This document shows, in pieces, positions 1,230 through 50,031 of a stretch of DNA of 64,000 bases. Position numbers and translations under genes: made by a program. Source of the DNA: Polytrichum commune (taxonomy: Eukaryota; Streptophyta; Polytrichopsida; Polytrichales; Polytrichaceae); contig OX485804.1 of assembly GCA_950295325.1 (NCBI GenBank), positions 59,610,533-59,674,532 on the forward strand, in the 5' to 3' direction. A model generated the notes under the pieces. The model did not search any database. It worked only from the letters and a program-made list of their open reading frames with translations, and was not told where the DNA came from. The first letter of the stretch is position 1. Every line of letters starts with the position of its first letter.

Positions 1230-1606
1230 CACCACGGGCCTTGGCTTGGTGGTTAGGGCTCATGGCCCCCAATGAGGAGGTTGTGGGTTCTATTCCCCAT
1301 GCCGGCGTGGTGCTCACCACTTCAGTCCACCCAACTATGGTGGGGGGTCCTTGGACCTTGTTGTATGGGTACCTCAAAGCCCTTTGGGGGGATACCATGT
1401 CCGGTATCTTCAAGGCACTAGTGGCTAGCTAGGAACTAGTATAGTGTGTCACTATAGTGTCCATCCTTGAAAGGGGAGAGTAGTATTGTCCCAATGTCCC
1501 CTTGTCCAGTGGGCATCGGGTCATTGGCATTACGAACGGACACTTTATTCACGCCGGCCCCTTGCTAAAAAGGGACCGGAGTTTCTATCTATCTTTCTAT
1601 CTATCT
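1230..1606 (+). mobile_element. tRNA-headed SINE, full length, with target-site duplication
   Basis: The head resembles a tRNA: an A-box-like TGGCTTGGTGG near 1242-1252 and a B-box-like GGTTCTATTCC at 1286-1296, about 45 bp apart, as in RNA polymerase III internal promoters. The 3' part carries a CCTT/AAGG hairpin region near 1466, the motif ATTCACGCCGG, a CCGG-stem hairpin and a TCTATC-repeat tail. It is flanked by GGGCCTTGCTCAAGG (1215-1229) and GGGCCTTGCTCTAAGG (1607-1622), a 15-16 bp target-site duplication with one indel. It inserted at the very end of the MITE just upstream. Confidence 0.85.
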
Positions 1607-1622
1607 GGGCCTTGCTCTAAGG

Positions 1623-1817
1623 CCTTACTCAATTTACATTATGGTCAGGTATCGCCCGTAGCCGCGCGTCAACGGCAGTCTACACCGAGAAATCAGTAGC
1701 GGCAGCTTACGGTTTTAGGGTTTTGGAGTTAGGGCTTTTGTATATACGTCTCCGCCTCTTCTCTGAGACTCCTCTAACCCTGAACAAGCACACGGAGCGT
1801 CGCACAGATTATCGAAG
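1623..1817 (+). promoter_or_regulatory. eL41 copy 1 promoter and 5' UTR
   Basis: A telo-box (TTAGGGTTT, reverse of AAACCCTAA) lies at 1715-1723, typical of plant ribosomal-protein promoters. A TATATA motif lies at 1741-1746 and suggests transcription starts near 1772 in pyrimidine-rich sequence. The region is conserved in the second copy. The SINE/MITE pair ends only about 195 bp upstream of the start codon, so distal promoter elements present in copy 2 are displaced here. Confidence 0.7.
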
Positions 1818-2488
1818 ATGAGGGCGAAGGTATGTTGTCCTGTGCATTGGGTCCACCTTCTACATGTGCTCTTGTAAGTGATGTCCAGGATGTGAATTTG
1901 GCAGATGTAGTGCTCCTCTTTGATGGCTTCATGTTTCTGAGTTCTGAGCTTTGTGCCCGTTGCCATTGGAGTTCTACACTTGTTTTGTTTTTATGTGTAA
2001 ACGCTCGTTCATTGGAAGTTGCATTGAAAGCACCTTATATGAACAGGAAAACTTATTGGCTTTTCTGTTGTGAAGTGGCGTCTGTGCGTTAGGTTTGGTT
2101 AGGGTTTCGCGGTTCATTTCTGTGTCGGCTTTGCACAGTATGTTTGTTGAAGTGGACATACCTTGTTTGTGGTCTATTGGGCGATTGATCCTCGGACCTT
2201 ACGTTCGAAAGGCCTTGTACGAAGAGAAAACCCTTCGCGGGTGTCTGCTGCGAAGCGCAGCCTTTGCCTTCCCTTTTTTTCCTGTTTCTGTTAGGGTTTT
2301 TGGGGTTTTCTTCCTTCTTTTCTGGGAACAGACTGTATCGGTGAAGTGGCGTTGTTTTGTGGTTTATTGAGGTTGAAATTGAATTGCATGCTGATGTCGT
2401 ATTGTCTGTTTGTGTAAAACAGTGGAAGAAAAAACGTATGAGGCGCCTGAAGCGCAAGCGCCGAAAGATGAGGCAAAGATCGAAATAG
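1818..2488 (+). CDS. RPL41: 60S ribosomal protein eL41, copy 1 (two exons)
   Basis: Exon 1 is 1818-1829 (ATG AGG GCG AAG). The intron 1830-2422 has GTATGT and AG borders. Exon 2 is 2423-2488, ending in TAG. The joined product is 25 residues, the usual eL41 length, almost wholly Arg/Lys, beginning MRAKWKKKRMRRLKRK and ending MRQRSK, which is the conserved family sequence. eL41 is a tiny helical protein of the large ribosomal subunit near the inter-subunit bridge. The gene is far too short for ordinary ORF finding. Coding sequence is identical in the inverted copy at 36867-37546. It is probably functional: frame, splice sites and promoter boxes are all intact. Confidence 0.95.
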
Positions 2489-3559
2489 GCGGTTGTGGAC
2501 TTCGCATAGAGTGGATGGCACTTTCACAATCGTTTGTTAGCGACTAAATTGTAGTTGATGTTGCGTTTTGCTTATAACATAGAGAGCTTCGCTAGGGTCA
2601 TCTTGGAAGCTAGTCGACATAGCCAAAGCCCTTTTGTTCCTTCTTTGGTTTCTTAGCCATCAGGTCCCGGTCGCTTCGGACATAAGAGACTCTGCTATTC
2701 GTACTGAGTAAAGATGAAAGGATTTTTGGCAGTCGATGAAAGTAATTTTAGTCGATGGCGGTGACCTTCAAAATCTCAACACAGATTGGCGAGACTGGTT
2801 CGTGTGTTTGGAGATTGAAAATTGACTTGTCTATTCCTGTTCAGCTTTTAATTTGGTGTGATGTATTTAATAGTTTACACTTGGTTTTAAAGTTATCCGT
2901 ATGGTTTTTAGTTCATGGTATCTGTGCACCATCACTTCTCTTAGATTGAAATAGAACTTGAAACATATATCACAAGTCTCCGTTGCCACTTCCTTTCTGA
3001 AAAATTCCGGAAGGAAGTTAGATTGTCAGAAACGATAGGTATAAGTAGTGAGGTTTTAAGGTAGGGCGAATGGCATAACTGATCACTGATTTTTGCGCAA
3101 ATTGAATCCACTACATGCTATGTTCGAAGTGAACATCGAATTGCGCCATGACAGGAGGAAGTGTGACAATGCGTCTTCATGTGTCTACGTTTCCATAGTG
3201 AAAGTTTCACTGCAGCAATGCTGATCTCTCTCATACCTGGTGCATTTCCAGCTAGGGTTCTGGGCGCTTGGTATAGTACTGATGAGGCAATCTGAACAAA
3301 AGCAATTGTCACCTTCCATGAATGTGCTTTATTTGGATGGTTTTAGCAAGTTTACAACTTTATATATAAGTCTACAACCCGAGTTTGAGGGTCGGTTCAC
3401 ATGGGGTCCCAAGTCCGACTTAAATATCCCATAAAAAGTCCTAACATGGAGGCAAAATTGCAACTTTTGAACCTGGAGACACCATTACAATAAGATGACT
3501 TGATAATGAAGACGAATCTTGATAACTTGATGTAAAATGTTGGCGGGACTTCTATTGGG

Positions 3560-4032
3560 AGTTGGGTGTACACTCTAAACTCCGTAGAATGATATTTGTG
3601 GAAACCAAAGTGGACGTGATATTACGGAGGTTTGTAGTTACAACATAGATGCGTAGAGACAATGATTTAGTGTAGCATGTGACATAGAATACTATAATGG
3701 AAATGTCAGGATAATTTGAATTTGTTCTCTCGTCACCTATGCTAGTGTGATCCTCTCCACTTAGCCTTCCCGGGCTATGTGGCGGATGCATGCACCAACA
3801 TACAACAAGTGGCATAAGAAGAATTAGAATAAGAAGGCAACACTCTATTTGTTGACACATGGTGTAATGTGAGGTTGTGGGTTGACTTCTTTGGTGGTTT
3901 GCATTAATGACAAATTTTGTGTATATATGATAGAGAAGTGTGATGATAAGGATTGAGATTTGAACTACAAATATCCATTCTCTAGGGTTTCAGGATATTA
4001 GAGAGTGTATGACATTGTGGGGGTTGATATTA
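3560..4032. repeat. Dispersed direct repeat, copy 1 (pairs with 11930-12275)
   Basis: Both copies share a run of similar sequence, including a shared stretch around CTAGGGTTT near 3983 and 12222, and end at GGTTGATATTA. Copy 1 is longer through an insertion at about 3710-3880. Non-coding. Useful because the downstream pogo-like element interrupts only this copy. Confidence 0.7.
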
Positions 4033-4896: not shown

Positions 4897-4898
4897 TA

Positions 4899-5537
4899 TG
4901 GAGATTAGGGTGTAGCTTTTTGCTCGACCCAATTCTCAATACAAGTGCCTCACCTCCAAAAAGCTGTCATGTAGACACCAATGTCATACTTGGGACCCTG
5001 TGTGAAGTGGTAAGTTCCAACTTCCGTGCTCTCAACATCTAAGTGACTTGGGACCCATGTCCATTGGCTTGAACCATAGAAGTATCAATTTCTATTTGTA
5101 TTACATAGGTCGTGTAAACTACGGTCACTATTGAATTTAGAATACTTAACAATCTTTAGAGACGTAGTCCAATATTTTTGTGACATGTGTCTTTATAGTG
5201 TTTGCTCTTTCATCGTCACCATACCACATACCAATCAAATTTAGGGGTTCCATTTTAAATGTAATCAAATAACACCTGCATAACTTATGCCTTCCGGTGC
5301 CCTAGCTAGGTTGCACTAAATTGTGACACACAATAATGTGGACTTATTTATCTAGTTGAATTATCGACAAGGGAATGTGGCTTTGCCATGGGAGGCTCTG
5401 TCCTAAATTGACATATTGATTATTTGGAATAATTATTATGTTGGAATTTCATTAAAATTCCACCGAGCTTCACCGAAGCTTATCCATTAAGTTATGGCAT
5501 GCACTACCCGGAAAAAGAAAAGATTAGAAAAGAAAAA
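4899..5537. other. Intergenic, no gene seen
   Basis: AT-rich sequence without a coding pattern or a recognised repeat. Confidence 0.5.
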
Positions 5538-6392
5538 ATAACGCCCGTATATAAATACCGGCATGAATATGAGTCCGTTGGCCTTACATTGATCACGGTA
5601 TTCCGTGATGCAGTATAAGGTGTTATGCCTCCTTTGGGAGGTGGGCTATGGTGATGTACTAGTTATCCTAGTTTGTTAAGGTGGGGGGACATGTGTTTGT
5701 TTATTGTCTAGTTTTCTCTTGTTTAGTACAAGGTATGTGAGGTTTTTGATAACATTATGGTGTATGCCTTTCATGAGGTTTTTAATGCTGGACTTTGGAA
5801 TTTTTAGTTTTGTGAGTTTGTCTATGGAGTGTTCATGTATGGCTCCTCTCACTCCAACTGTGATGGTAATAAGGGGGTTGGTTCTCCATCCATTATTTTG
5901 GATGGCGCTCATTAGTGGGTCATATTTGGTGTGCTTATGTGTGAGGGTTTGTTCGGGGAATCTATCATGGTAGTATGTGAATTCGATGAATTGGATTGTG
6001 TGGTTGGGGGATGGTGATATGGGTGTGTTTGGGTTGGGGCTCCGATCATGCACAAGATGTCTCGTCTTTAGTTTGGCTTGGCATTGGCATAGTTTTTGGG
6101 GGCATGTGCATTGAAGGAGCCAATATGGGACTGTTTGTTCTTGTGGTTGGTTGTTAAGATGGTCTGCATTGGTCAGGGTGAAGAACCGAGTGTTTTTATG
6201 GGCTTGTAATGTCTGAATGATGAGGTGTACTGCCTTGTTATGTCTTGCAATTCTGAGTCCTTTTAGGAATAAGTGTTCACATGTAGATAGGAGGTGGGGC
6301 CATGTGTCTCTTTCATTTTTATGGCATAATGTACAATTAGGATTTTGGTATGTGAGGGGCCAGAAGATGTTTTTCCTATGGTTGCCCTTGTA
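5538..6392 (-). mobile_element. RLE-type LINE, 5'-truncated fragment A
   Basis: Read on the minus strand, this fragment encodes the C-terminal part of the same polyprotein as the larger copy at 46365-49252. It has a C-x2-C ... H-x4-C zinc-knuckle-like segment at about 6280-6345, the ARHNKAVH stretch at about 6215-6250, then a conserved ORF at 5676-6053 with FIEFTYYHD and KYDPL. The 3' region has two hairpins (ATCACGG/CCGTGAT at 5592-5609 and CCTCC/GGAGG at 5628-5641) and a T-rich tail on the minus strand. At least one frameshift lies near the RPD motif (about 6050). The 5' junction at about 6393 abuts the 6393-7600 repeat. Confidence 0.8.
5676..6053 (-). pseudogene. Restriction-like endonuclease C-terminus of LINE A
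   Basis: This is the longest uninterrupted piece of the LINE product: 125 residues, reading FIEFTYYHD (about residues 23-31), then KYDPLMSAI, GVRGAIHEHS and a Lys/Arg-rich end. In the better-preserved copy the same region is preceded by RPDIL. RPD, then E/D in a beta-strand, then K-x-KY fits the PD-(D/E)xK restriction-like endonuclease of R2/NeSL/Dualen-type retrotransposons. Here the RPD part is frameshifted, so the domain is broken. Confidence 0.65.
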
Positions 6393-7600
6393 TTGGATAT
6401 GGAGCCTAGTGTAAAGACTTTGGGTCGAAATTGTTGCTCTCGACCATAAGCCTTGCTTTATTTTCGAGTCTCTTTGGTCTTGGACCCTAACGTAAACCCA
6501 CCCTTACTATGTGTAAAAGGAAAAAAAACGCGGAACAAGGCCGAATACTCAATGCTCATGATGACAAAACATATGTCAAATAAGTTTTTCAAAATTTTCA
6601 TCTCAAAAGTCACTTGCAAGACCTCCGTTACTAAAAATACTTGGGTGCTATTTGGTTACCTTTCTTAATCGGACACCTATATTTGATTGGTGTATGTCTA
6701 GGTGATGATCCAAGTCCAAAACCCATAAAGACATGTGGTTAAAAGAGGTTGGTCCACAATTTTAAATTTTATTAAATACTCCACACTCAATAATGAACAT
6801 AGTTGGGAGGACCTATGTATTCACTTAAGGAATCAAGAAACATACACTTTCAATAACCAAGATTGAATCAAGGTAGGTTCACTTTTCAAAAGACTACTTT
6901 TCTTTATGTTTCATCATAGATTTGCTAATGCAACACTAATGACAAAAGACGTAAACCTAAACCATTAAAGATGGAGAACAAGAATAATGAATTGAATAGC
7001 ATTCGCATACCATACTCAGAACCCCTCTTCATGCATACATAACATTACTAAAAAACTACATGATGGTTTCTTTCCAAAGAAAAAAGTTGGAATTAAACAA
7101 CTCTGATAATTTACAACTCCTTGTTGAAAAGTTCACAATACACTACTTGAATGCTCCCCTGAAATGGACAATCCCGTGATACTTTGTGCCATGGAACGTA
7201 GCCGAGGAGTTGTGTAATGCTAAGTAGAGCTGCGATACCTTAACCCCCATGCTTAAGGAACACATATAAATTAACCCAAGAGACCAAGAGATTTGTGTAA
7301 ATCAGTGTGGTGAACCTTTTCACCGGCATGCTTGACATTGTTCAACTTCCTAGCCTCTTCTTCTTTTTGCGTTTTTTAGAAGAAAAAAATGGATCCATTT
7401 CCGGGGAGATTTTGGGGCATAATCGGTCAAGGTCCTAGTGTTCCCGAGTCCAACTGGCTACATGTTGACATCTTTTGGGTTTTCTTTATTAATTTGAAGT
7501 ATGTTCCTCTAAAATGATTGGTAGTTGTCCTGAAGTCTTGAATTTTGACCGGTTACTTCTCAAACTCAACCAGTTCAGTTGTAACTAGGGGTTGGTTCCA
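6393..7600. repeat. Repeat block pairing inverted with 27040-28195
   Basis: About 1.2 kb shared in reverse complement, including segments near 7201-7440 and 27190-27430 that match almost base for base. The block ends in an ACCGGTT-family repeat (7395-7600). No coding region is seen. It may be a non-autonomous transposon or a further part of the segmental duplications. Confidence 0.8.
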
Positions 7601-7724: not shown

Positions 7725-10510
7725 TTGCCAAGAAGAAAGTAAAACTATATTCATAAGTTTGACACTGGTGATCAAAATACAACATATGTATTCGCGTCTA
7801 AGGGCACTTGGGTTGCGTATTCTAAATGTGATTCTTCGATGTCATTAAGACATCAACCAATTTGAAAAGTGTTGTCAAAGAACAAGTTAATTGTAGATGG
7901 GGTCACTTTTCACATTATTAAAGAAAATTGAATATTTTTAGCTCAAATATGTTATTTTGAGCATGGAGACGCCCAATTTGTACTTCTTAAACGATTAAGG
8001 GTTAATCTAGTGGGATGAATCAACCATAAAGTTTTTGGGGGTAGGATTTAACCGGACCCTTTTGACATGTTAGCCACGAATCTTAAGCCATAAAGGGTAC
8101 CACCTAAAATGGGATGTCTCTCCTTACCCACAACAATAAGTCATCCATGGCTATTCGGTACACATTCATAACACAATGTGCATGTGGAGGTCTTTTAATG
8201 GAAGTGCTTGTCTGTAAGCAATTTTGGGAATCTCACAAAGTATTCTATATTGTCTATAAATCTACAAATCTAGCAAGTAGTTAAGATGATAGGAAACAAT
8301 GATTTTTTCATGTCAAACAATCGTCGTAAGCATGAATTTTGATGAATAGTTGTGTAATTAGCTTCATCACTAAGATAGCAAGGATCGTCATCTAGGGGTC
8401 AACTCAACTCTTTTGTAGAAATATTTGGTTTGTTTACGCTAGGGTGGGTTGTGGTTGTGGTCGTAGTTGTGGTTTACTTTCATTGGTTCTATTCCATGCA
8501 AAAAGCATAATAAACGTTAAGGCTAATCATAACCATCATGTACCTTGTCAACCCCACTATTCTATGTGGTTTACCATCTTTATGGTGGTTGTTCATGCTC
8601 ATGTGGCATCACTAAAGTCTTCTAAGCCAAGAATTAGGGACAAAGTTGAGGAGCAAACCACTTTAACATTGCAATCCAAGACCAACAAGAATACTAACTT
8701 CTTCTTGAGCCCAAGACCTACAGCAATGATAGAATGCAATTCAGAAGACCAGTCACCCTCCCCCCCCCCCCTTTCAGTCAACCAAGACCACGAAGATTCG
8801 CACAGGACAAGTGTGAATGAAAAAGAAACTGTAGTTGTGGTTGACCACTACCATGCATGACCGCCTCTACATTCGTAAGATGGATGTTGATGATCCTATA
8901 TCTCATTTTAAACGGACACCTATATTTGAGTGGTGAAAAATTGGGTGTGCATTTAAAAACGGACACAAAATAGACATGTTGAAAAGACATTGGACTATCT
9001 GCTCATAAATTATTAACCATTCTAGATACAATAGTAAACATAAGGGGGGGGGGGGGAAGAGGACCTATATGAACATTTTATAACTTGGAAAGATTCACTT
9101 TGACAATGAAAAGAATATTTGCACGAACTCCGAAAATTGTGAGGAATGTGGCTACGGACATGATATGGATTTGCTAATCATCTCTTATTAATTATGTGTT
9201 TCATGTCATACAAGAAGTGGGTGCAGAGAAGCAAAACATAAAATCCATGTTGGCATGCAAAGGAGCATGATTTGAATTATTTATGGTGATCATGAATTTA
9301 GACTAGGCCTAGTCTAAGACCAAAGACACTCCAAAATGAAGTGACCCTATTGGTTGAGACCCTAAGGTGTTTTACCTACACTAGGATTTGAGTCCAACAT
9401 ATGAAAAAAATGAAGTGTTGCTAATGTGGCATCAATTTTCTCCCCATGCATAAGTTATCTCCATTTAAGAAAATATTTCTACTAATAAAATAATTCAATC
9501 TTTAAATTTGAGAAACTAATATGGAGTTTGAAAGCAAGGTCCATTAAAAGGGTGTTGGGATCCCAAGTTTCTTGGACTCAAATCGTATCGTAAATCCATC
9601 CCTTAATCTACAACAAGTAACAAGTAAGATATGGTTGGCAAATGCCCTGGAAACTCAAATTTATGATGTTATTGCAATAAATAAATAAATAAATAAAATA
9701 TCGTCGGGGTTTGGTTTATACACTGACGTGAATGGGAGCTTGTTCCTCTATACTGTGTTCATGTTTGACCAAACGTCACTGTAAGGGTACTTCCTTCCTC
9801 TCGGAAGGTGGGCTCCTTTAGTTTCAAGAAAAAATGCAGTACCTATCATCTAGGGGGGGGGGTCTACAGGGGGTTGTTTGTTGTCTAGCTTCCTCTTGTT
9901 TAGTATTAGGCATGTGAGGTATTTAATGGCAATTTGGTGTAGATGTTTCATAAGTGTTTTGATCTCATTTTGAGTATTTTGAGTTTTTCATAGTCTTTGA
10001 TTAGTTGTTCGTGGATTGACTTGCAACCGGCTGTTCTAAGTGTTTGTGCATTAAAAATGTCCTAAATGCATTAAAATTGTTAGATGCAATAACTTCATTT
10101 GCTTGTCAAGAGTCATTTTTCCAATCCCACATCAACGTTTCACACGTTCCAACCAACCCATGTGTGATATTCCAATGTGTGGTATTATGGTATGATCCCA
10201 CGAGTCCTCATACCCAATTCTAAATTTTTGTCATTGTGTTTTTCACTGCGTGTGGCACAATATGTATGTGTTATTAGTTCCATAATATTCTCTTGATAGT
10301 AAAGAATACAAAGAAAATATACTCTACTTCTTTTTCCATTTATATAACAATGTCACTCCATCCAAATGCTTTGATAATGATGACCTCTACATATTATGGT
10401 GTCTTGACCCAATGTTCAAATGTTTAATATATGTACATATATTGTTCGTCGTGGGGTCATTAGTGTGGGACCCCCCTTTTTTTAGAACATCAACCTAGCA
10501 ACAACCACTA
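7725..10510. repeat. Left arm of second inverted duplication (pairs with 42335-49385)
   Basis: Matches in reverse complement: 7725-7853 with 49255-49385, 7850-9250 with 45000-46354, 9300-9640 with 42850-43190, and 10030-10510 with 42340-42830. The right arm carries a Harbinger-like element and a long LINE where this arm is uninterrupted. This arm carries LINE fragment B. A C12 run (8760-8771) and a G13 run (9044-9056) here are not matched in the partner. No supported gene. Confidence 0.85.
9682..10030 (-). mobile_element. RLE-type LINE fragment B (3' end)
   Basis: On the minus strand this holds the degenerate last part of the LINE endonuclease region (9880-10030, similar to 5700-5850 and 46545-46690) and its 3' UTR. 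The 3' UTR has a perfect CCTTCC/GGAAGG hairpin with a TCTC loop at 9793-9808, the conserved GTGGGCT beside it (plus-strand reading), the CCATTCACGTC motif, and a tail of ATTT repeats. The paired duplication at about 42720-42850 lacks it. Confidence 0.75.
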
Positions 10511-10529
10511 AAAGCAAATGCAATCTTGG

Positions 10530-11636: not shown

Positions 11637-11687
11637 GTCGTATGTATGTATGTATGTATGTATGCATGTATAACACACACACACACA

Positions 11688-11721: not shown

Positions 11722-11725
<4 letters not shown>

Positions 11726-12844: not shown

Positions 12845-12993
12845 TACTATAGTGTCCATCCTCGGAAGGGGAGAGTAGTATTGTCCCAACTTCCCTCTGT
12901 CATGTGGGCATCGGGTCATTGGCATTACGAACGGACACTTTATTCACGCCGGCCCCTGCTTAAGGGACCGGAGTTTCTATCTATCTTTGCTTT
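12845..12993 (+). mobile_element. 5'-truncated SINE
   Basis: Closely matches 1452-1600 of the full-length SINE, from ACTATAGTGTCCATCC through the ATTCACGCCGG motif, the CCGG hairpin and the TCTATC tail. The tRNA-like head is missing. No clear target-site duplication was found. Downstream, 13000-14100 shows nothing recognisable. Confidence 0.85.
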
Positions 12994-15715: not shown

Positions 15716-15811
15716 CATAGAGTCCACCACCGAAAGGTTGCAGTAGCCCGTGGGCAAAGTGACTCTCCATTCATGCTTGCCCTCAATCGAGGCCGGCATT
15801 TCTATCTATCT
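15716..15811 (+). mobile_element. 5'-truncated SINE, second tail type
   Basis: About 95 bp containing GTCCACCACCGAAAGG, GTAGCCCGTGGGCAAAG, CCATTCATGC, GGCCGGC and a TCTATC tail. It matches three fragments downstream of the CBS-domain gene (58484-59082). It shares the CCACC-hairpin plus ATTCATGC layout with the LINE tails. Confidence 0.75.
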
Positions 15812-28199: not shown

Positions 28200-30248
28200 T
28201 CCAAACTCTGAAGAAGAAGAAGAAATGCTATGGTTCCTACATGGGACCACTTTTCCACCAAATTTTGTCAATCTCAACTATTTTGAACGTTGGGTGAAAC
28301 TTTTGAGGCCTCCTCTTTCCACCTCTCAAACTTTGACAGAATTTTAGGATCTTAAAAAAATAGGGTATGTGCATGGGACCCGCCGTCCTAAATCCCATAT
28401 CAGCCTATGCAAGGCTAGCTTGGCCCACCCATCCTAGTTGGACAACCTAAAAAACCAATTTTCAACAGCCCGACACCACTCTTTGTGTATGATAACTTAA
28501 GCATCACGAAAACTTAGGTGACTTTGTGTGAATTCTCAGAAACTCAAGGTTCGGAACTGAACCCATGGTTTCATGTCCTTCACTTTACAAACAACTCGAA
28601 TGTCCAAAACTTGAACCTTTCTTTTTGCCCATCAGATAACGTTTGTGTTGGAGTGTTTTGGCAACAATCTAGAACTTTAGTCTGAGACCATCCACCCCTT
28701 GGCAAAAGACATGCCAAAGGACATGGAAGGATTAAAGGGCCTTATATTCACAACGGTATGAAAATCAATGTTCATTTTTCTTTCCTTTTCTTTTCTTTTC
28801 TTTTCTTGAAGCCCGGGACCGTGGATTAGGTACAAAGGTGCTCAGAAGATACAGACACACACCCAGTGTTGACAGGCAGAGCTGTCTCCAACCCTTTTCT
28901 GTTTCTTGTTTTGTTCGCTGGGATGGGAAAGGGATTTGTCCTTCAAATTCTCATGAATACCGTGTGCTGTGTGGGATAAAAATCGTACTTCTCCTGGTAC
29001 TTCTCCTTACATTTATCGTTTTTACGTAGATTAGGGGGAACGGAGGTGCTGTGTTGGCCCTGAGAAGAGAAATGCTGTCCATTGTGGCTTGTCTTCTACC
29101 GCACACGCAGTTTTCCTACCAATTATTGCATCATTTTCCCAGTTGCTAACCGTCCATTGAAGCTTGGAGAACACACAACCGGTAACCTCCCAGTTGACAA
29201 CCAGATCAAAAGTGATTCATTCTTGGAACTATTGTATTTTGCAATTGGCAAGCAACAACCACTACAAGCACATATATGAGTCACGGGCAATCACCCTACA
29301 TCGATGAAAAGCACAATGCAAATTTATCACTATACTCGATTTGTAGATTTCCTGTGATGTAGGACGAGTTTTCAAGTTTCATATGTTTGTAGCGAACGAA
29401 CAAGATTTTGTCATTGATACCAATTTTTAACCATAGGAGTGTGTGTGTGTGTGTGTGTGTGATGAAGTTTCCAAATGTCTGCCAACCATGTGTCAGTGAG
29501 TGTAATCAAACTCACAAGCACGAGCGTATCGCTTATGCGTCAAGACATGTGTCACAGGCGAATGTGAATAAGTACTTGGAGTAATATGAGCACAAGATTA
29601 GAACAAACGAGCAATTGATCATCCAACTTAAACTTGATAGTTGTCGCATTGGCTCCCTTGAAATCAATTGATCTAAGATGGTCATGTCATGGGTGAGGTG
29701 AAACTCGTAGCCACCAACACTTTCTCTGCATTTTTGAAGCATTTTATCTATGTCAGCCAAAGGCTAGAGGAAGAGAAAGTACATTTTTTTATAGTGTCAT
29801 CTCTTACTGTACTTTAATGAAACCGTCCATTCGGGGAGGGAGTGCTATATTGCATTGTATAGTCTTGCCTAGCTAGCAATGGGCAAGCAATGACTTATCT
29901 ATGAGGTTGTTGGCCTAATGTGCTCCAATAGCAAGGCAATTTGCGTTCCACACATGCTTGAAATGTACTCAAGTAAAGTATGGTAATAACAAATGATTTC
30001 AACATACACAAATTTTGAATTTTGCATGTATTATAGTACACTACATGGATGAGGTACGGGTGGCTAAAGAGACAACACCTCAAGTGTATGTTGATGGTTG
30101 TTCAACATATTCTTAAAGAGTACCTATACTTTTCGCTCAAGACCTTTGCCGTTACAACTTCTATTGAATCATTCTTTAAGGGTTGTCACCGCATCCATTT
30201 TCATGGTTGAGCATTGACCTCAGGGAGTTCTATTCCCTGGTCAAATTA
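28200..30248. other. Intergenic, with (GT)n at 29439-29461
   Basis: No gene recognised. Contains a TTTTC-rich stretch (28770-28806) and a GT dinucleotide repeat. Confidence 0.6.
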
Positions 30249-35863: not shown

Positions 35864-36309
35864 GGACCACTTCACACACGAGACTGCGAGCCCGTGACCA
35901 GTACATTTCAAGCACTCTCATTGGTGGAAAGGGCGGAGCTAAGTTCGCTTTACTCTACACTTCAGGGACCAACAGAGTATGTGAATGCAAGATGGATATG
36001 ATGTTTACCTGGATTCCTACGTGACAATGAATGGATCATGTTTCTTGGTCACTTGGACTATTTTCAAAACCCACCTTGGGAAGCGTGCCACAAAACCGGA
36101 AGACCATGCCACTCCGTAGGCTCACAATTGTTGATTTATTCAAATTTATTATGCCGGAGGACCCGCACACATATGACTTTAAAGTACAGTTAGGGTCCGT
36201 GACCGCAGTACATGATTTTGGAGGTGTCTTTGGGACGGCGTTTGGACATTTCCTTGTGGGCCCTATCAATTTCATGGTCACGGCTCTTGGCTCGTGTATG
36301 AAGTGGGCC
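35864..36309. mobile_element. Possible TIR insertion in right arm
   Basis: Imperfect inverted ends of nearly 40 bp (GGACCACTTCACACACGAG and, inverted, GGCCCACTTCATACACGAG, each followed by a GTGACC segment). This stretch is absent from the left arm, where only about 75 bp separate the flanking matches. The target-site duplication is unclear. A 101-codon open frame inside (36031-36336) has no recognised domain. Confidence 0.45.
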
Positions 36310-36866
36310 TTCTCCCTGTCGTTTCTGAGGATCTGAACTTCCTTCCGGAAGTCTTCAGAAAGGAAGACGCAACGCACTGGCTCGTGATATATGTCACGAG
36401 TTTTATTGTAATTTCAGAGAAGTAATGGTGCACAGACACCATGAAATAAAAATTACAAGGATAGCTTTACAACCAAGAATACAATACATGCATCACACCG
36501 AATTCAAAGCTGATCTGAAAACAATGATTTTCAATCTGCAAACACACGAACCAGTCTCGCCAATCTGTGTTGAGATAATGAAGGTCATCGCCATCTACTA
36601 GAATTACTTCCACTGTCAAAAATCCTTTCATCTTTACTCAGTACGAATAACAGAGCATCTTAAGTCCGAAACGACCTAGACCTGATGGCTGAGAAACCAA
36701 TAAAGGAACAAAAGGACTTTTGCAATGTCGACCAGCTTCCAAGATAACCCCAGCGAAGCTCTCTTATCTTATAAGCAAAACGAAACTTCAACTATGATTT
36801 AGTCGCTAACAAACGATTGTGAAAGTGCCGTCTTAGCCATCCTCTATATGCGAAGTCCACAACCGT

Positions 36867-37546
36867 CTATTTCGATCTTTGCCTCATCTTTCGGCGCTTG
36901 CGCTTCAGGCGCCTCATACGTTTTTTCTTCCACTGTTTTACACAAACAGACAATACAATATCAGTATGCAAATCAATAACCTCCACAAACCACACAGTAA
37001 CGCCACTTCTCCGACACACAGTCTGTCCACATAAAAGAAGAGAACACCAAAAACCCTAACAAAACCCTAACAGAAAGAACAGAAACCGTGAAGGCAAAGG
37101 CTGCGCCTCGCAGCAGACAGCCACTAAGGATTTTCTTTTCCTACAAGGCCCTTCGAATGTAAGATCAAAACCCCCAACAAACCACAAACAAGCTATATCC
37201 ACTTCAACAAACACACTGTGCAAAGCCGACACAGAAATGAACCGCGAAACCCTAACCAAACCTAAACAAAGAAACCGCACAGGCGCCACTTCACAATAGA
37301 ACAGCCAATAGGCTTTCCTGTTCATTTAAGGTTCTTTCAATGCAACTACTAATGAACGAGCGTTTACACAGAAAAAGGAAACAAGTGTACAAACCCAATA
37401 TCGACGGACACAAAGCTCAGAACTGAGAAACATCAAACCATTGTAGAGAAATACTACATCGGCTACATTCACATCCTGGACATCACTTACAAGAGCACAG
37501 GTAGAAGATGGACCCAATGCACAGGACAACATACCTTCGCCCTCAT
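36867..37546 (-). CDS. RPL41: 60S ribosomal protein eL41, copy 2 (two exons)
   Basis: On the minus strand, exon 1 is 37546-37535 (ATG AGG GCG AAG). The intron 37534-36933 has GTAT and AG borders. Exon 2 is 36932-36867, ending in TAG. All 78 coding bases are identical to copy 1, giving the same 25-residue Arg/Lys-rich protein. Introns are of similar length (602 against 593 bp) but diverged by substitutions and small indels, so identity is confined to constrained sequence. This copy keeps the promoter without the MITE/SINE insertion and is probably the less disturbed gene. Confidence 0.95.
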
Positions 37547-37745
37547 CCTCGATAATCTGTGCGACGCTCCGAGTGCTTGTTCAGTGTTAGAGGAGTCTCA
37601 GAGAAGAGGCGGAGACGTATATACAAAAGCCCTAACTCCAAAACCCTAAACCCGTAAGCTGCCGCTGCTGATTTCTCGGTGTGGTTCTGCCGTTAACGCG
37701 CGGCTACGGGCGATACCTGACCATAATGTATATTGAGTAAGGCCT
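37547..37745 (-). promoter_or_regulatory. eL41 copy 2 promoter and 5' UTR
   Basis: Telo-box AAACCCTAA at 37641-37649 (plus-strand reading) and a TATA-like GTATATAC near 37618-37624 sit at the same distances from the start codon as in copy 1. Upstream sequence continues uninterrupted through TAAGGCCTTA (about 37738-37748), where copy 1 carries 0.9 kb of transposons. Confidence 0.7.
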
Positions 37746-38620
37746 TACATCGCCAAACAAGTGTGAACGGGGAGGAAATTGACCCAACTCGGTCTGTATC
37801 CTTAAAGGTAGAGGGTGCTTAAACCAACACTTTAAGCTATTGCACATACATATGGCTATGTGGTTGAGATATGAATATTAGCCTTTGGGCTAAACATAGG
37901 TATCAAGAAAGAAAAAATATTTGTAATCTCAATTGAATATTTGATGAATATTCAAAGTCAAAACTACTAGCTCCCTTAAACCAATTCATAGGTCCCGTGT
38001 ATGGCAACCTTGCATGTGATAAGGAACCCCACCATCATTGTTTAGAACCAACACAACATAGTTGGGTACTAGACCCAAACTACATCAAAGCTCAAGTAGT
38101 ATTGGTATGCAAAGCCACACATCTACCTTCATGATCCCACCCGGTTTGCTTGTAAAACCATCACCTTGCATCCCGGGAAATAACCCTCTTGTGCTTTGTG
38201 GGCTACCTCCTTGGCATTGTGAATAGAATGGCTAGAATAGGCATTGACAAGCCACCCTAATCCCACCTTGAACCAACCCAAGATAGAGTGGAGCCCGTTG
38301 CTTACCATACATGAAGGTAGTGGAGGCCATTATGAGGTGGCACCACTAATGACACCTAAAACCGTCACTCCGTGAGCCCAAACACTCCTACACTGCCAAG
38401 TACGGTTCAAGGTCGTAGAGTGTTGGCATGTGCATGGTTGTGTGTACTTACGGGCCAATACATTGTTGAGTTCACACCTGACCACATGTAGTTGCCCAAC
38501 GTAATAATGTTCATAGTTTTCTTTTCTCCCAACCATTTTCCCCACAAAAAATTTGTGAACACAAATGCTCTCAAAATGGAGATTTTATTTTTGAATGTGT
38601 AAGAATTAAAAATATTATTA

Positions 38621-41728: not shown

Positions 41729-42334
41729 TAAGAGTTGAGACTCCCCTAAACTAGTCCTCCAGCATATAGTTTACCCACTCGCCCTCCATGCCTCGGGGGT
41801 GAGTTAAGTGATCTTAACTAATGATCATTACTTACGAGATGAGAACATTGTGTAACACCATAGTCCCAACCAGTGGGTAACTCCCCTTTACCTTTTAGAA
41901 TTATTAGATCTCCCCGGGTGGAGTCTTCTAGTCTTATAGATTATAGAGTCTAGTTGGAACTAATAAATAGATACATGTTACACATATCTTATGAATATTA
42001 AGATAAAGTAAATTCTATAGAGATGCCACATTGTTGGAAAGATGATCTCTCTCTTTCTCCATTTATCTATCTATCTATATATATACCTTATGGATTCTTT
42101 GGGTCTTTGGAAAAAATAAAGTTATGCTCAAAGAGATGAAATAATAAAGGATAACATAAGTCATGAAGTGCAACTACTGCTTTGACACAAAAATACTATG
42201 TTGATGGCATTGACAGTCCAAATGAACTCAGTTTGGTTATTATGGCCATAGTGGTCCCCAAAAAAATGCATAGATGACTTAATGGGTCTCTACCTTAACT
42301 TATCCTTCTAGCTAGTTGCCTTACCCCTCGTTGC
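41729..42334. other. Intergenic, no gene seen
   Basis: Short CTAT repeat near 42063-42085. Otherwise nothing recognised. Confidence 0.5.
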
Positions 42335-43547
42335 CCTTTGTTCTTGTTGGTTGTTGCTAGGTTGATAAATACAACAACAAAAATTTGGGGGACCCTACAC
42401 TAATGACCCCACATGGAACAATATATGTACAAATATTGAACATTTGAACAGTGGGTTAGGACACCATAACATGTGGAGGCCGTCATTTGTCAAAGCATTT
42501 GGATGGAATGGCATTGTTAAAGGCAATGAAAAAAAGAAGTAGAGTGTATTTTCTCTCTTTTGTCTTCTATAAATATCAAACTACGCAACTAATAAGACAT
42601 ACATATTGCGCCACACACAAAGTGAAAAACACAATGACAAAAATATAGAATTGGGCACAACACCTCAAGGGATCGTACCATAGTACCTTCACATCACAGA
42701 CTGGTTGGTTGGAACATGTGAAAAATTGATGTTGGCATCGGAAAAGTCGATCTTTGACAAGCGAAGTACCCAAACTGTGAAGTTATTTGCATCTGACGAT
42801 TTTAACGTGACAACATCAAAAATACAAGTTTTAGGGCATTGCCACGTTATGTTACTTATTACTTGTTGTAGGTTAAGGGGTGGATTTATATTAGGATCCG
42901 AGTCCAAGAAACTCGGGATCCTAAACACCCTCTTAAATGGTCCTTGCTTTCAAACTTCATATTAGTTTCTCAAACTTGACGATTGAATTCTCATATTAAA
43001 AGGAAAACTTTCTTAAATGAAAACAACCTTTGTACCAGGAGAAAATTGATGCCACATTAACACCACTTCATTTTTTTCATACATTGGGCCCAGACCTAGG
43101 CTAGTGTAGGTCAACACCTTGGGGTCTTAACCAATAGGGTCACTTCGTTTTGGAGTTTTCTTCGGTCTTAGACCAGGCCTAGTCCGAACTCGTGGTCACC
43201 ATAAAGAAGTCAATTCCTGCGCTTCTGATGCCTATGTGGATTTTTGGAGTCTGACGTGGTACAAAAGAGGCTGACGTGGCCAATATGTCAGGCTGACTCA
43301 TCACTTGGGAGCCTCAGATTTTCCAATGATGGCTTTTTAAATTCCATGTCTAGAATGTTCCGATGTCCGGCCACTGCAAGAATCGAGGGGCAGCAATTCC
43401 AAGGTGGCAATTCCAAGCACAAATTTGTAACCACCTATGAATTGGTGATTTTGTTTACAAAGGGCTATTATTACTAAGGTAAGCGGAACTTAAACGGACA
43501 TTTCTTCCTTGGCACCCACTTCTCGTTCTACATGAAACACATAATTA

Positions 43548-44996
43548 GGGGCGGTTTACACTATGGACCATGAAGTCGGACCAGGCGTTGTAAGAGCGCT
43601 AATTGGTTACTGACCTCGTCCCGGGACCATTTCGGTTTACACTAAGGAAAAACATGGCAGAGGAGCCATGAAGGTTGAGGTCCCTAAAATACAAATTTCA
43701 AGGCCTAATAAATGTACTGACATAGTCAAGTGGGTTTTGCGGTGAGAGAGGCAAGAGAGGTGGTCTAGTAAGAAAAGGCAGAGGCTCATGGCAGAGAAAT
43801 GCCGTTCTAATGTTTTTTTAATTAATTTTTTTGGGGGGGCTTAATTTACAACTCTTACCACTTGGCAAGGCTCACTTTTCAGCATCTATATGATGTAAGG
43901 AATCTTGAGAAGTATGTCCACCCTCTATGCGCCTAGATCATATCATAGCCCATGAGACACACCATTTCTTCCATGCCCTGCGCCTTAAACTTGCTCACAC
44001 ATGTTTCATCAAACAATGTGGGACATCTAGAACTCAAGAATTTGAGTGCATATTTGTTTTTTTGGTCCATCAACTAAAATGTTTGGAATTTGGGGGCTTG
44101 TAATATACTGTTGGAAAAATATTGAGAATACCTTTGCAACGGTGTATTACACGCCCTGAAATTTTTAATAATTACAATTGAAAAACAAAAAAGAAAAAAT
44201 TTGTAGTTGTGTAGTGAATGTAAATCAGGGTGGCCAAAAGAACTGCAAATGGGAAAATGATTGCAGTTCTTTTTCACATAGTTTTCTACTACACTAAATA
44301 GGATATTTAGTGTTTGATACACTAAATATGAATGTATATACTAAATATTAATAACCCTATGAAAGTAAGTAACATTAAGTAAGTAAACTTAAACACTAAA
44401 TATCAACTAAGGTAATATGTGGAAGTTACATGTTTTAATTTAGTGTTAGTAAGGATATGAGAAAAATAAATTAACAATGATAAAAGGAGAATTCCAAGAT
44501 ATCTTCTAGCAAATCTTCTAACACTATTTATCAAAGAATTGAAAATTAGTGTTGAGCAAGATACAATGGTAACAACAATCAAATTTAAACAACCACTAAA
44601 TATCCTATTTAGTGTAGTGACAACACGAGGTACATGTCACATGTACAAATTAAATCACTCATCTTTTTGTATTAATTGTTGTGAGAAGATTTGCAATCCA
44701 CATCTTCAACACATTTAACAAGAAGTGAAGACAAGTGAAGCGCAAGAGAAGACAAGAGAATGGTCAAACTTGAATTTTTTTCCAAAACTGCCCTTTTTGG
44801 GCATGTATTATAAAAAATCAGCACATTCACTTTTTGCTGCATGGTCATTCTTCTTGGTCCACATTCGGTTTACACCTAGTGAGGGGCCCAAGGCTTTCAA
44901 AACTAATTTCTTAAGAAGTCGGACCATGGAAGTTGGACCATTGAAAAAGGCCCTCTTCCATGGTCCGACTTCATGGTCCATAGTGTAAACCCCCCC
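43548..44996. mobile_element. Harbinger-like transposon, non-autonomous, with empty site
   Basis: Starts GGGGCGGTTTACACTATGG and ends with the inverted equivalent (TAGTGTAAACCCCCCC), flanked by TTA (43545-43547 and 44997-44999). The left arm near 9181-9206 reads continuously with one TTA. TTA target, GGG-rich ends and 1.4 kb size fit the PIF/Harbinger superfamily. No DDE or Myb-like ORF can be read. Relatives lie at 33910-34099 and 40734-41728. A smaller MITE is nested at 44288-44618. Confidence 0.85.
44288..44618. mobile_element. Nested MITE, ACTACACTAAAT family
   Basis: The ends ACTACACTAAATAGGATATT and its inverse lie 331 bp apart inside the Harbinger-like element. CACTAAATAT words are repeated internally. 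Same family as 30249-30647. It is younger than its host. Confidence 0.75.
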
Positions 44997-46534
44997 TTAG
45001 AAAGAGATGATTAGCAGATCCATATTGTGCCTGTAGGCCACTTTCTTCGCATTTTTTGGAGTTCGTGAAAATATTCTATTCATTGTCAAAGAGAATATTC
45101 TTCAAGTTATGAATTGATCATGTAGGTTCTTCTTCCCAATTATGTTGACTATTGTATCTAGAGTGGTTAATGATTTATGAGCATGTAGTCCAAATCTCTT
45201 TTCAACATATGTGTATTTGGTGTTTGTTTTTAGATCCACACCCAATCATTAACCACTCAAATATAGGTATCCAATCAACATGAGGTATAGAATCATACAC
45301 ATCCACCTTTACGAACATAGAGGTGGTCGTGGTAGTGGTCAACCACAACTGCAATTTCTTTTCATCCACACTTGTCTTGTGCGAGCCTTCGTTGTCTTGG
45401 GTGATGGGGGGTTGGCCTTCAAAATGGCATTCTATCATTGGTATGGGTCTTGGACTCAAGAAGAATTTAACATACTTATTATCCTTGTTGGTCTTTGAGT
45501 GCAATGTTAAAGTGGTTGTCTCCCTCAACTTTCTCCCCAATTTTTGGCCTAGAAGACTTCAGTGATGCCACATGAGCATGAACAACCACCCAAGGGTGGA
45601 TTAGTGGGGTTGACAAGGTACGTGGTGGTTGTGATTAGCCTTAATGTTTATTATTTTCTTTTCATGGAATGGAACCAATAAAAGTAAACCACAACCACAC
45701 CCACAACCAACCCTAGTGTAAATGACCATTTAATTTTACAACAGAGCCTATTTGATTGGTAGATGACGATCTCTACTATATGAGTGATGAAGCTAATTAC
45801 ACAACTATTCATCAAAATTCCTGCATATTCATTCATAATCTTATAAATTTCTTGTTTTGGATTTGGCAACATCCAGTTGGGTTGTGATCTCTAGGTCATG
45901 GATATGACGATTGTTTGACATTAAAAAAATAATTGTTTCCTATCAGCTTAGTTGCTTCTTATATTTGTGGATGTCACCATCGTTGAAAACTTTGTGAGAT
46001 TCCCAAAATTACTTACAAACAATCACTTCCACATGTACATTGTGTTATGAATGTGTACCCAATATTCATGGACGACTTATTGCCATGGGTAGGGGGCCAC
46101 ATCCCATTATGGGTGTCACCCTTTATGGCTAAAGATTCGTGGCTAACATGTGAGAAGGGTCTGGCTAAAACCTACCCGTAAAGCTTTATGGTTGTTTGAT
46201 CTCAATGGATTAACCCTTGAGCATTGAAGAGGTCCAAATTTGATCTCTCCATGCTCAAAATAATGTATCTGAGCTACACAATTTCAATTTTCATTTGATT
46301 ATGTGAAAAGTGACCCTATCTACCCTTAACTTGTAATTGAAGATTATTTTTCAAATTGGTTGAAGAAAAAAAAGAAAAATAACGCCCGTACATAGTACCG
46401 GCATGAATGTGAGCCCATTACCCAAATGCAAAACATGACTAGTCGTGTTGTGGCATGAGGGGTTATGCCTCTTTTGGGAGGTGAGCTCTATCAGTTGACA
46501 ATTAATCTATAATATCCAGTTTTAGGGAGGTGCA

Positions 46535-46920
46535 ATGGTGGTTTGTTTGTTGTCAAGTTTCCTTTTGTTGAGTATGAGGTAAGTTAGGTAGTTAACGGCA
46601 TTATGATGTATATTTTTCATGAGGTTTTTGATGTTGGTCTTTGGGATGTTAAGTTCATCTAATTTATTAATGGATTGTTCGTGTATAGCCCCTCTGACTC
46701 CTGCTGTAATCGTGATAAGGGGGTTTATTTTCCATCCTTTGTTTCGTATGGCATTAATTAAGGGGTCGTATTTGGCTTGTTTTTGTGTGATGGCTTGTTA
46801 TGGGAATATGTCGTGGCAGTATGTGAATTCAATGAATTATATTGTGTGTGCATTTGAGGGTAGTAAGGGTGTGGGGGTGTGGTTTGGGGCTCCAAGTATG
46901 CAGAGGATGTCTGGTCTGAG
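46535..46920 (-). pseudogene. Restriction-like endonuclease domain of LINE C
   Basis: Reads LRPDILCILGAPN (46920-46880), then TIQFIEFTYCHD (about 46840-46805), then a stop, then KQAKYDPLINAI and GVRGAIHEQS. The pattern RPD ... (I)EFT ... KxxKYDPL matches the PD-(D/E)xK nuclease fold used by R2-like LINEs to nick target DNA. The assignment rests on motif spacing and C-terminal position after the knuckle, not on a database search. Confidence 0.6.
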
Positions 46921-47539
46921 CCTGGCGTGGCATTGGCATTTTGTTTGCTTGCATGTGCACTCTATGAGCCATTCATGGACGGTTTGTGCTTGTCTATTAT
47001 TGTTGAGGGTGCCTGCATTTGTTAGTGTGTAGTATCTAGTGTGTTTGTTGGCTTGTAGTGTCAGTGTAATGATGTGTACCGCCTTGTTGTGTCGGGCTAT
47101 TCTTAGGCCCTTTAGGTAAGGGTGCTCACACATTGATAGTAAATGGGGCCATGTGTCTTTGTCATTTTTGTGGCATAGTGTGCATTTGGGGTTTTGGAAT
47201 TTGAGAGGCCAGAAGATGTTTTTTTTGTAGTTACCCGTGTATTGGGCGTAGCGGAATTTTAAGGTTTGAGTGATTTGGGCGTAAAATATTTTATTGTTTT
47301 TCCAGAAGTGGTTGGAGTGTTTTTGGTTTATTTGGTCGTTTGATAGCCATTTTTCTACGTATGGGTATTTATTTTGGGCCGTTCTTACTTCTCGATAGTT
47401 GTGTGCTTTTGTTACGAATGTGTGTAGATTCTGAATTGCTCCGTCACGTGTGGCGGTTGGGCACCTTGCTAGCTAGTATGGTGTGGCGTGGGCTATATAT
47501 ATATGGGGTGTGGCGGTAGGTTTCTCTTTAAGTGCTCCT

Positions 47540-48345
47540 TCGTTGGCTAGTGTGTCTGCTATTCGTTTCCTATGATGCCTGTGTGGGCCCTTACTTTATG
47601 TATGTGTATTAAGAGCATCCTCAGTCGGTCTAGGTAAAGCTCACTGCAAACCAAAACCTATCTTTTGACTGACCTAAAATTAGAAACTGAAATTACCATC
47701 ATTAGAAGCACACCTAAATAAACGTGAGATATTTCTCAAGAAAAAAGAATTGTAAAAATTTGACGTAGGTGAAATCCCTCATTGAAAACACCACATTTTC
47801 AAAATTTAGAGGGAGTGCACCAAATCTTGCTTAAAAATGGAAAGATCCTCCCACACTCCCTCCAAATTTTTGACATTTAGAGGGAGTGTGGGAGGATCTG
47901 TCCATTTTTAAGCAAGATTTGGTGCACTCCCTCTAAATTTTGAGCATTTTAAGCAAGATAGGTCTTGGTTTGCAGTGAGCTTTACCTAGACCGACTGAGG
48001 ATGCTCTAAGTGTGGTGTCCAATAAATTTGGTGTATTATGGCTGTTATGAGGAGTTTGTCTGGGTGTTGTTGTTGTGAGGTTGGGTGTTGTATGTGGTTG
48101 CTGATTAAGTATATATTGTTAAGGCTATCTGTAAATATGTGTGTGTCTGTTTGGGTGGTTTGTATGTTTTGGATAGCGATGAGTATAGCATTTAATTCCA
48201 CTCTTAGGATATTTTGGTGTCTTGGTAATCCTTCGGCTATGTGTATATTTTTGTTGGGGCTATATACTCCAGATCATGCGGTATCACCCACTATTTGGCC
48301 TTCTGAGTTTTTAGCTGGGGGGATGAATGACCCGTCTGTGTATAT
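47540..48345 (-). pseudogene. RNase H domain of LINE C
   Basis: The four acidic positions of RNase HI can be seen in order on the minus strand: YTDGSF (Asp near 48334), RVELNAIL (Glu), FTDSLNN (Asp), and HTGIIGNE followed by IADTLANEGA (Asp). A TGA stop follows GDTA, and a one-base deletion separates GNE from IADTLA. The 394-bp MITE at 47613-48006 interrupts the domain between the third and fourth motifs; reading across it with one TAA keeps the frame. The domain would remove RNA from the cDNA hybrid during retrotransposition. Non-functional now. Confidence 0.8.
47613..48006. mobile_element. Foldback MITE inside the LINE, Harbinger type
   Basis: Terminal inverted repeats of about 50 bp start GAGCATCCTCAGTCGGTC, flanked by TAA (47610-47612 and 48007-48009). 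A second, inner inverted repeat with arms of about 60 bp and a loop of about 17 nt lies at roughly 47808-47945, so most of the element folds on itself. TAA target and GAGCATC ends fit PIF/Harbinger MITEs. It is younger than the LINE it interrupts. Confidence 0.85.
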
Positions 48346-49385
48346 GCATTGTTGTGGATGGTATTTGTGAGGGTGTTGGTGGTGGTATTAATATGGGAGG
48401 GCCATTTGGGAGATGGTTGTTGGTGGGAGGGTGTTATTTATGGGGGCATTTTTCCATGTAGTTGAGAATTTGACGTGGTAGTTTGTTGCCGTGGGGTTGA
48501 TGGGGGAAAGTGTTTATATGTGTGTTGGTGGTTAGTTCTAGTATTTTTGTGAGTTCTTGTGGGGTTCATAGGTTTATTGTGGGGTTGCTTTGGTTGTGTA
48601 TGCATATTATTGACGTGAGTGTTGGTTCTACGTATTGATAATATTTTGGCCATTATGGCGTGGGGTTGTATTGTATGGTGTGTGGGGGGATGGTTGCGAG
48701 GGTGTGTATGTCGCCATTCTTGGTGAGTGCGATTTGTTGTGGGGTCCAGTCATTGTGGTTAATTATGAGGATGGTGGCTGTGTTTGTATCTTCTTTGGTT
48801 GCCATTCTAGCCCAATGGATGGCTTCCACGGTTGTGTTGTGATCTGTAGGGTATGCTAGGCCTATGCCTTTCCATCTGAAGGTTTGTGCTTGTCCCATGG
48901 AGCCGAATATTTTATCCCGGTTGTGGGGTGAGTGATATTGTGTAAGTTGTGTGGGGCATGTGAGCGGAGATGAGTAATACGAGTGTGTGATTTTATTAGT
49001 TTCTATTAGTGTCTTAATAATTGCCGGGTGGAGTGTGTGGTGCATGTTCTTGGGTTGTATGGTTTTTGGTTTTCTTTTAGGGATTATGGTTATGTATCTT
49101 TGGATGAGCCAGAGTATTTATGTTTCAAAGTTTCGGGGTGGTGGTTGAAGGGGTTTGTTAGCTGGGTGGGTTGGTGGTAGGAGAATTGGTTCCATAGCCA
49201 TTGGAGCCTTTCTAGAGTAATGGTAGCCATGTAATTTCCTTTTTGGTCATAGATTGGTTGAATATCTTAATGGTATTGAAGATTTACGTTCAAATACATA
49301 GCCGGAGTGCCCTTGGATGCAAATACATACATTGTATTGTGATTACCAATGTCAAACTTATTGATATAATTTTCATTTCTTCTTG

Positions 49386-49906
49386 ACAAAAGACAATATA
49401 TATAATAAGGCTTCAAACCCATAATATATAGCATATGATTTTTGAACTTATTTCAGGTCATATATTGAGATCCTATATATCATTTATGGGTTAATTTGGG
49501 GCGTGTGATGTGACAAATGCTTCAATAATAATCCAAACGTAGAAATGGTTTCCAAGTCTATAAAACATTACAAGGGAAGCATTGGTTAGCGAATTGGAGG
49601 GTCTTTCGGAGTGAGAATGAGGGTAGTTACATAGAGCCATTGAACCTATTCATATAACAAGATATTACCCAGTTTCATCATTCAAAAGGGTCCCCCATGA
49701 GACACCTTTATAGATGGCTATCTACATAATTTGATGCTAGTATACATGTACCCAACTTCACCCTTTGCAATGCCTCCTAAGGTCCCTTGAATCTTTCTAT
49801 AGTCCCTTGCACAAGGATTGCGTGAGATAACGCTCTATTGACAAGGAATGGTGCCCCTTTTAAGTGGCATAAATAAGTTATCACTTTCAAGTTGGTACTT
49901 TGTGCA
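49386..49906. other. Intergenic, no gene seen
   Basis: AT-rich, no recognised structure except the left target duplication of the next element. Confidence 0.5.
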
Positions 49907-50031
49907 AGAAAAGGAATGAAAAACCAACGTCGGGCACTCGATGCAAATGTGAGCCCATTGGCCCTACCTTGCTCAAGAGTCCTTCTTGGTGTGGGGTGGG
50001 GTTTACCGTCTACCTTGCGGTAGGTGGGCTC
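49907..50031 (-). mobile_element. Very short LINE/SINE tail insertion with 12-bp target duplication
   Basis: 125 bp flanked by perfect GTACTTTGTGCA duplications (49895-49906 and 50032-50043). Minus-strand content is only the conserved 3' tail: CGAGCCCACC, a CTACC/GGTAG hairpin (50010-50023), GCCCGACGTTGG and a pyrimidine-rich end. A classic severely 5'-truncated target-primed insertion. Confidence 0.8.

Follow-up and report, generated by a model that had tools for sequence, protein, structure and literature searches.

A 64,000-nucleotide stretch of the Polytrichum commune genome (assembly GCA_950295325.1, contig OX485804.1, positions 59,610,533 to 59,674,532 of the forward strand; hereafter the window) seems, with fair probability, to hold a retrotransposition pair: a long interspersed element (LINE) that bears an RNase H and is probably of the restriction-like endonuclease (RLE) type (Dualen/RandI-like), and two families of short interspersed elements (SINE1 and SINE2) with the same terminal RNA fold. 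A relationship between the LINE and SINE tails at the level of structure is probable, and the statistics from this single window back it moderately; mobilization of the SINEs by the LINE is plausible but unproven. The main tail search covered both strands of the window, and the comparison concerns four LINE tails (A to D) and six SINE tails (S1a and S1b of SINE1, S2a to S2d of SINE2; Table 1).

Read 5′ to 3′, the tails follow a common order: an outer clamp (P1) that encloses a hairpin (P2) and a variable element (P3), a spacer of 2-3 nt, the motif ATTCAYGC, a stem (P4), and a pyrimidine-rich end. The AYGC(C/T) of the motif is the 5′ arm of P4. Both the clamp and this role of the motif go beyond the first-pass annotation of the window, which had reported a hairpin and a conserved 3′ motif common to LINE and SINE tails, and which did not list the tail of LINE B. 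The 5′ arm of P1 is GAGCCCA in LINE C (50031-50025, pairing with TGGGCTC at 49957-49951), GAGCTCA in LINE B, AGTGTCC in SINE1, and AGAGTC in SINE2, and the 3′ arms are TGGGCTC (LINE B and C), GGACACT (SINE1), and GACTCT (SINE2). The three LINE hairpins described in that annotation were found where it had placed them, each preceded by GCCCA, and they constitute P2 in LINE A (CCTCC/GGAGG, 5628-5641), LINE D (CCTTCC/GGAAGG, 9793-9808), and LINE C (CTACC/GGTAG, 50010-50023), the hairpin following directly after CCA or CCACC. The hairpin proposed for the SINEs is also present as an inner hairpin (UCCUU/GGGGA in S1a, UCCUC/GGGGA in S1b, ACC/GGU in S2a), but S2a and S2c have a short one, and that of S2b is broken. 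Five of the 10 copies (C, D, S1a, S1b, and S2a) have a GNRA loop in P2. The P4 3′ arm reads GGCGT (A, B, and S2d), GACGT (C and S2b), GACGA (D), GGAGT (SINE1), GGCAT (S2a), or GGCCT (S2c). The conserved motifs, as originally formulated, hold for part of the copies: the LINE motif ATTCATGCCGG is exact in A (5568) and B (46408), whereas D has an altered form (ATTCACGTC) and C preserves it poorly (ATTTGCATC); that of the SINEs is ATTCACGCCGG in both SINE1 copies (1547 and 12942) and ATTCATGC in S2a, but ATTTATGC, AATTATGC, and TTTTATGC in the other three SINE2 copies.

The tails were compared with a covariance model that was built from the four LINE tails alone and searched with all filters off, matches being reported at E ≤ 10; the SINE positions had been named before this model was built. 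Among its 26 matches outside the training set, the first three ranks were taken by S2a (E = 0.007), S1b (E = 0.14), and S2d (E = 0.32). S1a (E = 1.1) and S2b (E = 5.5) were also retrieved, so that five of the six SINE tails were reported, and the matches to SINE1 and SINE2 extended over the full length, P1 through tail. When the base pairs were removed from the same alignment, the resulting sequence-only model returned 20 matches outside the training set at E ≤ 10, with no SINE tail of the six among them; this control also differs in mode, its matches being local pieces, so the subtraction is imperfect. A nhmmer search with the same LINE alignment likewise returned none of the six, up to E ≤ 50. 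Because the structural model finds the SINE tails and the sequence-only model does not, the two kinds of element are linked in structure more than in letters, and the link appears to rest in the pairing pattern. The common tail proposed earlier is supported as a structure but not as a sequence, with a weak result in the reverse direction (see below).

Pairing was also assessed from the alignments. In the seven best matches of the LINE-trained model, 12 of 26 pairs were changed on both sides, and covariation was 0.368, compared with 0.188 for shuffled alignments (0 of 500 shuffles as high); this alignment was fitted to the model and therefore leans toward the structure. Here, P1 differs between LINE and SINE by changes from A-U to U-A and from C-G to U-A. 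RNAalifold recovered P1 and P4 on the LINEs alone as well as on these seven matches. Folding energies were low relative to shuffled sequences for A (z = −4.5), B (−3.5), and S1a (−3.6), and modestly so for C (−2.1), D (−1.8), and S1b (−1.6). Exchanging arms between lineages gave an equally good fit in 10 of 120 permutations for P1, 1 of 120 for P2, 16 of 120 for P4, and 296 of 1,728,000 combined. These figures carry little weight, since the choice of arms and representatives was made by hand: for P1 and P4, LINE B, C, D, S1, and S2a were used and A, S2b, S2c, and S2d left out; for P2, A, C, D, S1, and S2d were used and B, S2a, S2b, and S2c left out.

Several results weigh against a common fold. 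S2c was not reported by the LINE-trained model at E ≤ 10, and a match without any supporting context at 28706 (E = 0.61) outranked both S1a and S2b. In the alignments of the SINE1 copies to this model, three of the six P2 pairs were broken; therefore, P1 and P4 carry these matches. In the reverse direction, a covariance model built from the four SINE2 tails placed LINE B (E = 2.0, sixth of 27 matches outside the training set), S1a (E = 2.8), and LINE A (E = 6.4) among chance matches, all three starting at the edge of P1 and stopping before the 3′ arm of P4; S1b was found at E = 3.9 with a wrong start, and LINE C and LINE D were missed. A loose descriptor containing the pairing only was not specific (424 matches, compared with a mean of 368 and a maximum of 424 in 159 shuffles). 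The compensating stem changes claimed at the outset received moderate support from the copies in the window when the four LINE tails were aligned blind to structure (covariation 0.199, compared with 0.140 under shuffling and matched or surpassed in 12 of 500 shuffles; pairs changed on both sides 5, compared with 2.9, 48 of 500), but across all ten sequences aligned in this manner, the base of P4 was not significant (88 of 500). RNAalifold never recovered P2, neither on the LINEs alone nor on the seven best matches, and predicted no pair at all on the structure-blind alignment of ten sequences, which is partly because the P1 arms of LINE and SINE are offset by one column there. The four SINE2 tails folded no better than shuffled sequences (z between −0.5 and −1.1).

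The match at 28706-28780 (plus strand) was the best one lacking context for the structural and the sequence-only model alike and could be a very decayed tail. A run of TCTATC at 42064 was dismissed as a plain microsatellite.

Small hairpins are common, and fitting ones might simply have been picked, an explanation with which the loose descriptor being barely above shuffles, the weak covariation in structure-blind alignments, and the weak reverse search would all agree. Nevertheless, we consider chance very improbable, as places named beforehand filled the first three ranks outside the training set when both strands of the 64,000-base window were searched, and did not do so with the sequence-only model. 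The SINE tails could also be fossils, that is, descend from a LINE tail and be homologous by origin without being recognized in common today. The truncation of the LINE copies, the partial or decayed state of most SINE copies, and the poor folding of SINE2 are in line with this possibility. However, loss of pairs is what one would expect of a neutral fossil, whereas P1 and P4 are maintained across families by changes on both sides of a pair. This suggests selection in active lineages and makes a mere fossil, in our estimation, quite unlikely.

Insertion marks were surveyed for seven copies (LINE A to D, S1a, S1b, and S2a). LINE C is flanked by a perfect 12-bp target-site duplication (TSD; TGCACAAAGTAC, 50032-50043 and 49895-49906), and a common 12-mer arose in 0 of 5,000 shuffles of its flanks. 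The TSD of LINE B (TTCAACCAAT, 10 bp, 49253-49262 and 46355-46364) is on its own not decisive, as another common 10-mer lies farther out; its joined flanks align unbroken to a paralogue around 7761-7950, which represents the empty site. S1a is bordered by TGGGCCTTGCTC (12 bp, 1214-1225 and 1606-1617), a length that is slightly ambiguous because the copy sits at the right end of another element (see below). For LINE D, a paralogous stretch near 42806-42811 is devoid of the element, and an 8-bp repeat was found but no clean TSD. No TSD was found for LINE A, no clear one for S1b, and none of at least 7 bp for S2a. The comparison of TSD lengths that the first-pass annotation had suggested thus extends to three of the seven copies, whose duplications agree in length (10 bp in B, 12 bp in C, and 12 bp in S1a), the other four having no clear duplication.

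These data bear on whether a different LINE outside the window, for example of the L1 or RTE type, moves the SINEs, the likeness of the tails then being convergence on a hairpin-rich 3′ end. The 3′ ends speak for this alternative and against the proposed pair: those of the LINEs are T-rich (TTTTTC in A to C) or (ATTT)n (D), whereas the SINEs end in TCTATC (TTTCTATC or a near variant). So do the lack of sequence-level similarity between the tails in both sequence-only searches and the weak reverse search. On the other side stand the top ranks of SINE1 and SINE2 with a model trained on the LINE only, which they match over its full length, P1 included, and the similar lengths of the three clear TSDs. 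Taken together, a foreign partner LINE is, in our view, unlikely.

The first-pass annotation had called the LINE an RLE element. What is supported by domain searches is the RNase H of LINE B (PF00075, E = 2e-6, 28.5 bits with a Pfam cut-off of 25.8; the piece was entered with X at a stop), which stands in the order PCIF1_WW-like stretch, RNase H, CCHC motif, RLE-like C-terminus. The RLE part is a reading by eye of a PD...E...K pattern (RPD ... IEFTY ... K..KY) in the LINE translations. It had no relevant match in Pfam, the LINE protein had none in a sequence search of the PDB, and an AlphaFold model of the C-terminal open reading frame (ORF) of LINE A (mean predicted local distance difference test score 33) was unusable for judging the RLE fold. 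The copies in the window lack their 5′ parts. The LINE pieces contain neither a reverse transcriptase nor an N-terminal endonuclease, and a Pfam scan of 13 ORFs, out of 20 with at least 130 amino acids, detected no reverse transcriptase either. No relatives of the protein were confirmed among viral contigs (searched with the LINE A ORF) or genome contigs (searched with the LINE B ORF). As judged from its translations, the LINE is probably of the RLE type, and its domain order fits the Dualen/RandI group, with both the clade and the RLE unproven, which counts against the fuller interpretation.

The PCIF1_WW match 5′ of the RNase H (cap methyltransferase family; 48656-49117, minus strand; E = 2.7e-6) scored 27.5 bits, below the cut-off of 31.1. 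A methyltransferase-like domain would be unusual in a LINE, and none of the papers listed in a literature search dealt with such an element. LINE B is also interrupted between the RNase H and the CCHC/RLE part by an insert with long inverted repeats that resembles a miniature inverted-repeat transposable element (47612-48007). A long inverted-repeat relationship connects, in pieces, 7725-10518 with 42337-49389 (77-81% identity), one side being broken by LINE B and the other by LINE D.

If the proposed pair is real, the LINE protein would bind the fold on its own mRNA, and target-primed reverse transcription would start from the pyrimidine end, which the ATTCAYGC hairpin adjoins. SINE1 RNA, with its tRNA-like RNA polymerase III head, and the tail-only RNA of SINE2 would be accepted because they present the same fold in different letters. 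For SINE1, A- and B-box candidates were found as expected of a tRNA-derived SINE, each in S1a agreeing with the consensus in 10 of 11 positions (A box at 1242, B box at 1286); the two strands of the window contain four B-box matches as good as that of S1a. The SINE2 copies of this window show no head. A further-reaching idea is that the LINE enzyme reads the fold and not the sequence, and that the folded tail alone, as a headless RNA of ∼115 nt, would be a complete mobile unit and a minimal retrotransposon of an RLE system; we hold this to be possible but doubtful. LINE C starts exactly at the first base of P1, as set by its TSD, and S2a and S1b start within about 3 and 5 nt of P1, respectively, as judged from loss of similarity only. 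Such starts in three tail-only copies from three families suggest, few as the copies are, that the template RNA often ends at the clamp, as if it were trimmed as far as the clamp or protected from that point on. The start of LINE C at its clamp was also the reason why a ribozyme like that of hepatitis delta virus was considered; it was dropped on grounds of its layout.

Table 1. LINE and SINE copies in the window and their structured tails.
Feature	Position	Strand	Remarks
LINE A	5532-6430	minus	5′ end approximate, placed where similarity to LINE B ceases; tail 5532-5648
LINE B	46365-49252	minus	5′-truncated; PCIF1-like stretch, RNase H, CCHC, RLE-like C-terminus, structured 3′ tail
LINE B tail	46374-46488	minus	P1 GAGCTCA/TGGGCTC, P2, P3, P4 base ATGCC/GGCGT, T-rich end
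LINE C	49907-50031	minus	tail only; tail 49918-50031; P2 50023-50010
LINE D	about 9671-10070	minus	ends approximate; tail 9691-9815, then (ATTT)n
SINE1 S1a	1226-1605	plus	tRNA-like head; A box 1242-1252, B box 1286-1296; structured tail from 1456
SINE1 S1b	12846-12985	plus	92% to S1a; similarity begins about 5 nt before P1
SINE2 S2a	15717-15810	plus	tail only
SINE2 S2b	58485-58585	plus	P2 broken
SINE2 S2c	58756-58872	plus	P1 decayed
SINE2 S2d	58984-59083	plus	matched by the LINE-trained model

A CBS-domain gene has its 3′ end repeated in tandem, and three of the SINE2 copies (S2b, S2c, and S2d) are located within this repeat; they therefore probably represent one insertion, not three. The repeat, including the SINE2 copies, spans 58408-59099, its units being about 73-76% alike; Pfam places the CBS domain at 57408-58469 and, farther on, at 61492-62253, a protein of the enhancer-of-polycomb-like kind, both in keeping with nuclear DNA of a eukaryote, probably a plant. 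S1a occupies the right end of an element with terminal inverted repeats (694-1617; GAGCAAG ... CTTGCTC ends and TAA on both sides, by eye), which is missing from a paralogous stretch near 37744-37747. Next to it begins an inverted duplication of 1.4 kb (1618-3045 and 36309-37747; 85% identical).

Among known systems, the R2 element offers a parallel in mechanism: there, an RLE LINE protein is thought to bind the folded 3′ untranslated region of its RNA and to carry out target-primed reverse transcription. The likeness lies in the combination of a (here putative) RLE LINE protein with a folded 3′ RNA; in the present case, Rfam gave no match in the window at gathering scores and, when the LINE C and S1a stretches were searched at E ≤ 5, no relevant one for either of these two.

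The enzymes of stringent LINEs are believed to bind their own RNA at its 3′ end, and SINEs that share this end to be transported with it (PMC3747384). Stringent-type pairs in plants described there are ZmSINE2 and ZmSINE3 with LINE1-1_ZM of the L1 clade, and the 3′ hairpin of a plant LINE lineage is reported to be conserved and to carry compensatory changes (PMC3747384). The tails studied here resemble these pairs in having such a hairpin, but the partner would be of the type with RNase H and RLE-like C-terminus instead of the L1 clade, and the fold consists of two or more hairpins with an outer clamp.

A precedent is given by the SINEs of Chlamydomonas reinhardtii, where SINEX-1, -2, -4, and -5/6 are listed as partners of RandI/Dualen LINEs and RandI 3′ repeats are given as (ATT)n and (CTATTT)n (PMC3747384). 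Dualen is stated to encode both an apurinic endonuclease (APE) and an RLE, RNase H is listed for Dualen/RandI (PMC4640811), and Dualen is found in Chlamydomonas and relatives (PMC8226300). Among the papers listed in literature searches of limited coverage, none reported a RandI/Dualen SINE pair in land plants. If the pair proposed here is real, SINE and LINE partners could be recognized by their fold where the letters no longer match, and SINEs without a known LINE tail might be assigned; a RandI/Dualen-type partnership would extend beyond Chlamydomonas; and a compact RNA (clamp, hairpin, and ATTCAYGC hairpin) would be at hand to examine template choice by an RLE LINE protein. Were the tail alone a mobile unit as well, it would be a minimal RLE retrotransposon outside the alga for which such pairs were listed. 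In Chlamydomonas, the SINEs are paired with LINEs of a group to which RNase H and RLE are ascribed (PMC4640811), and the pair proposed here would resemble this. The two systems differ in that the common tail is seen here as structure and not as sequence, and in the TCTATC end of the SINEs. By analogy, and with no clade membership claimed, the pair in P. commune may work like a RandI-SINE pair.

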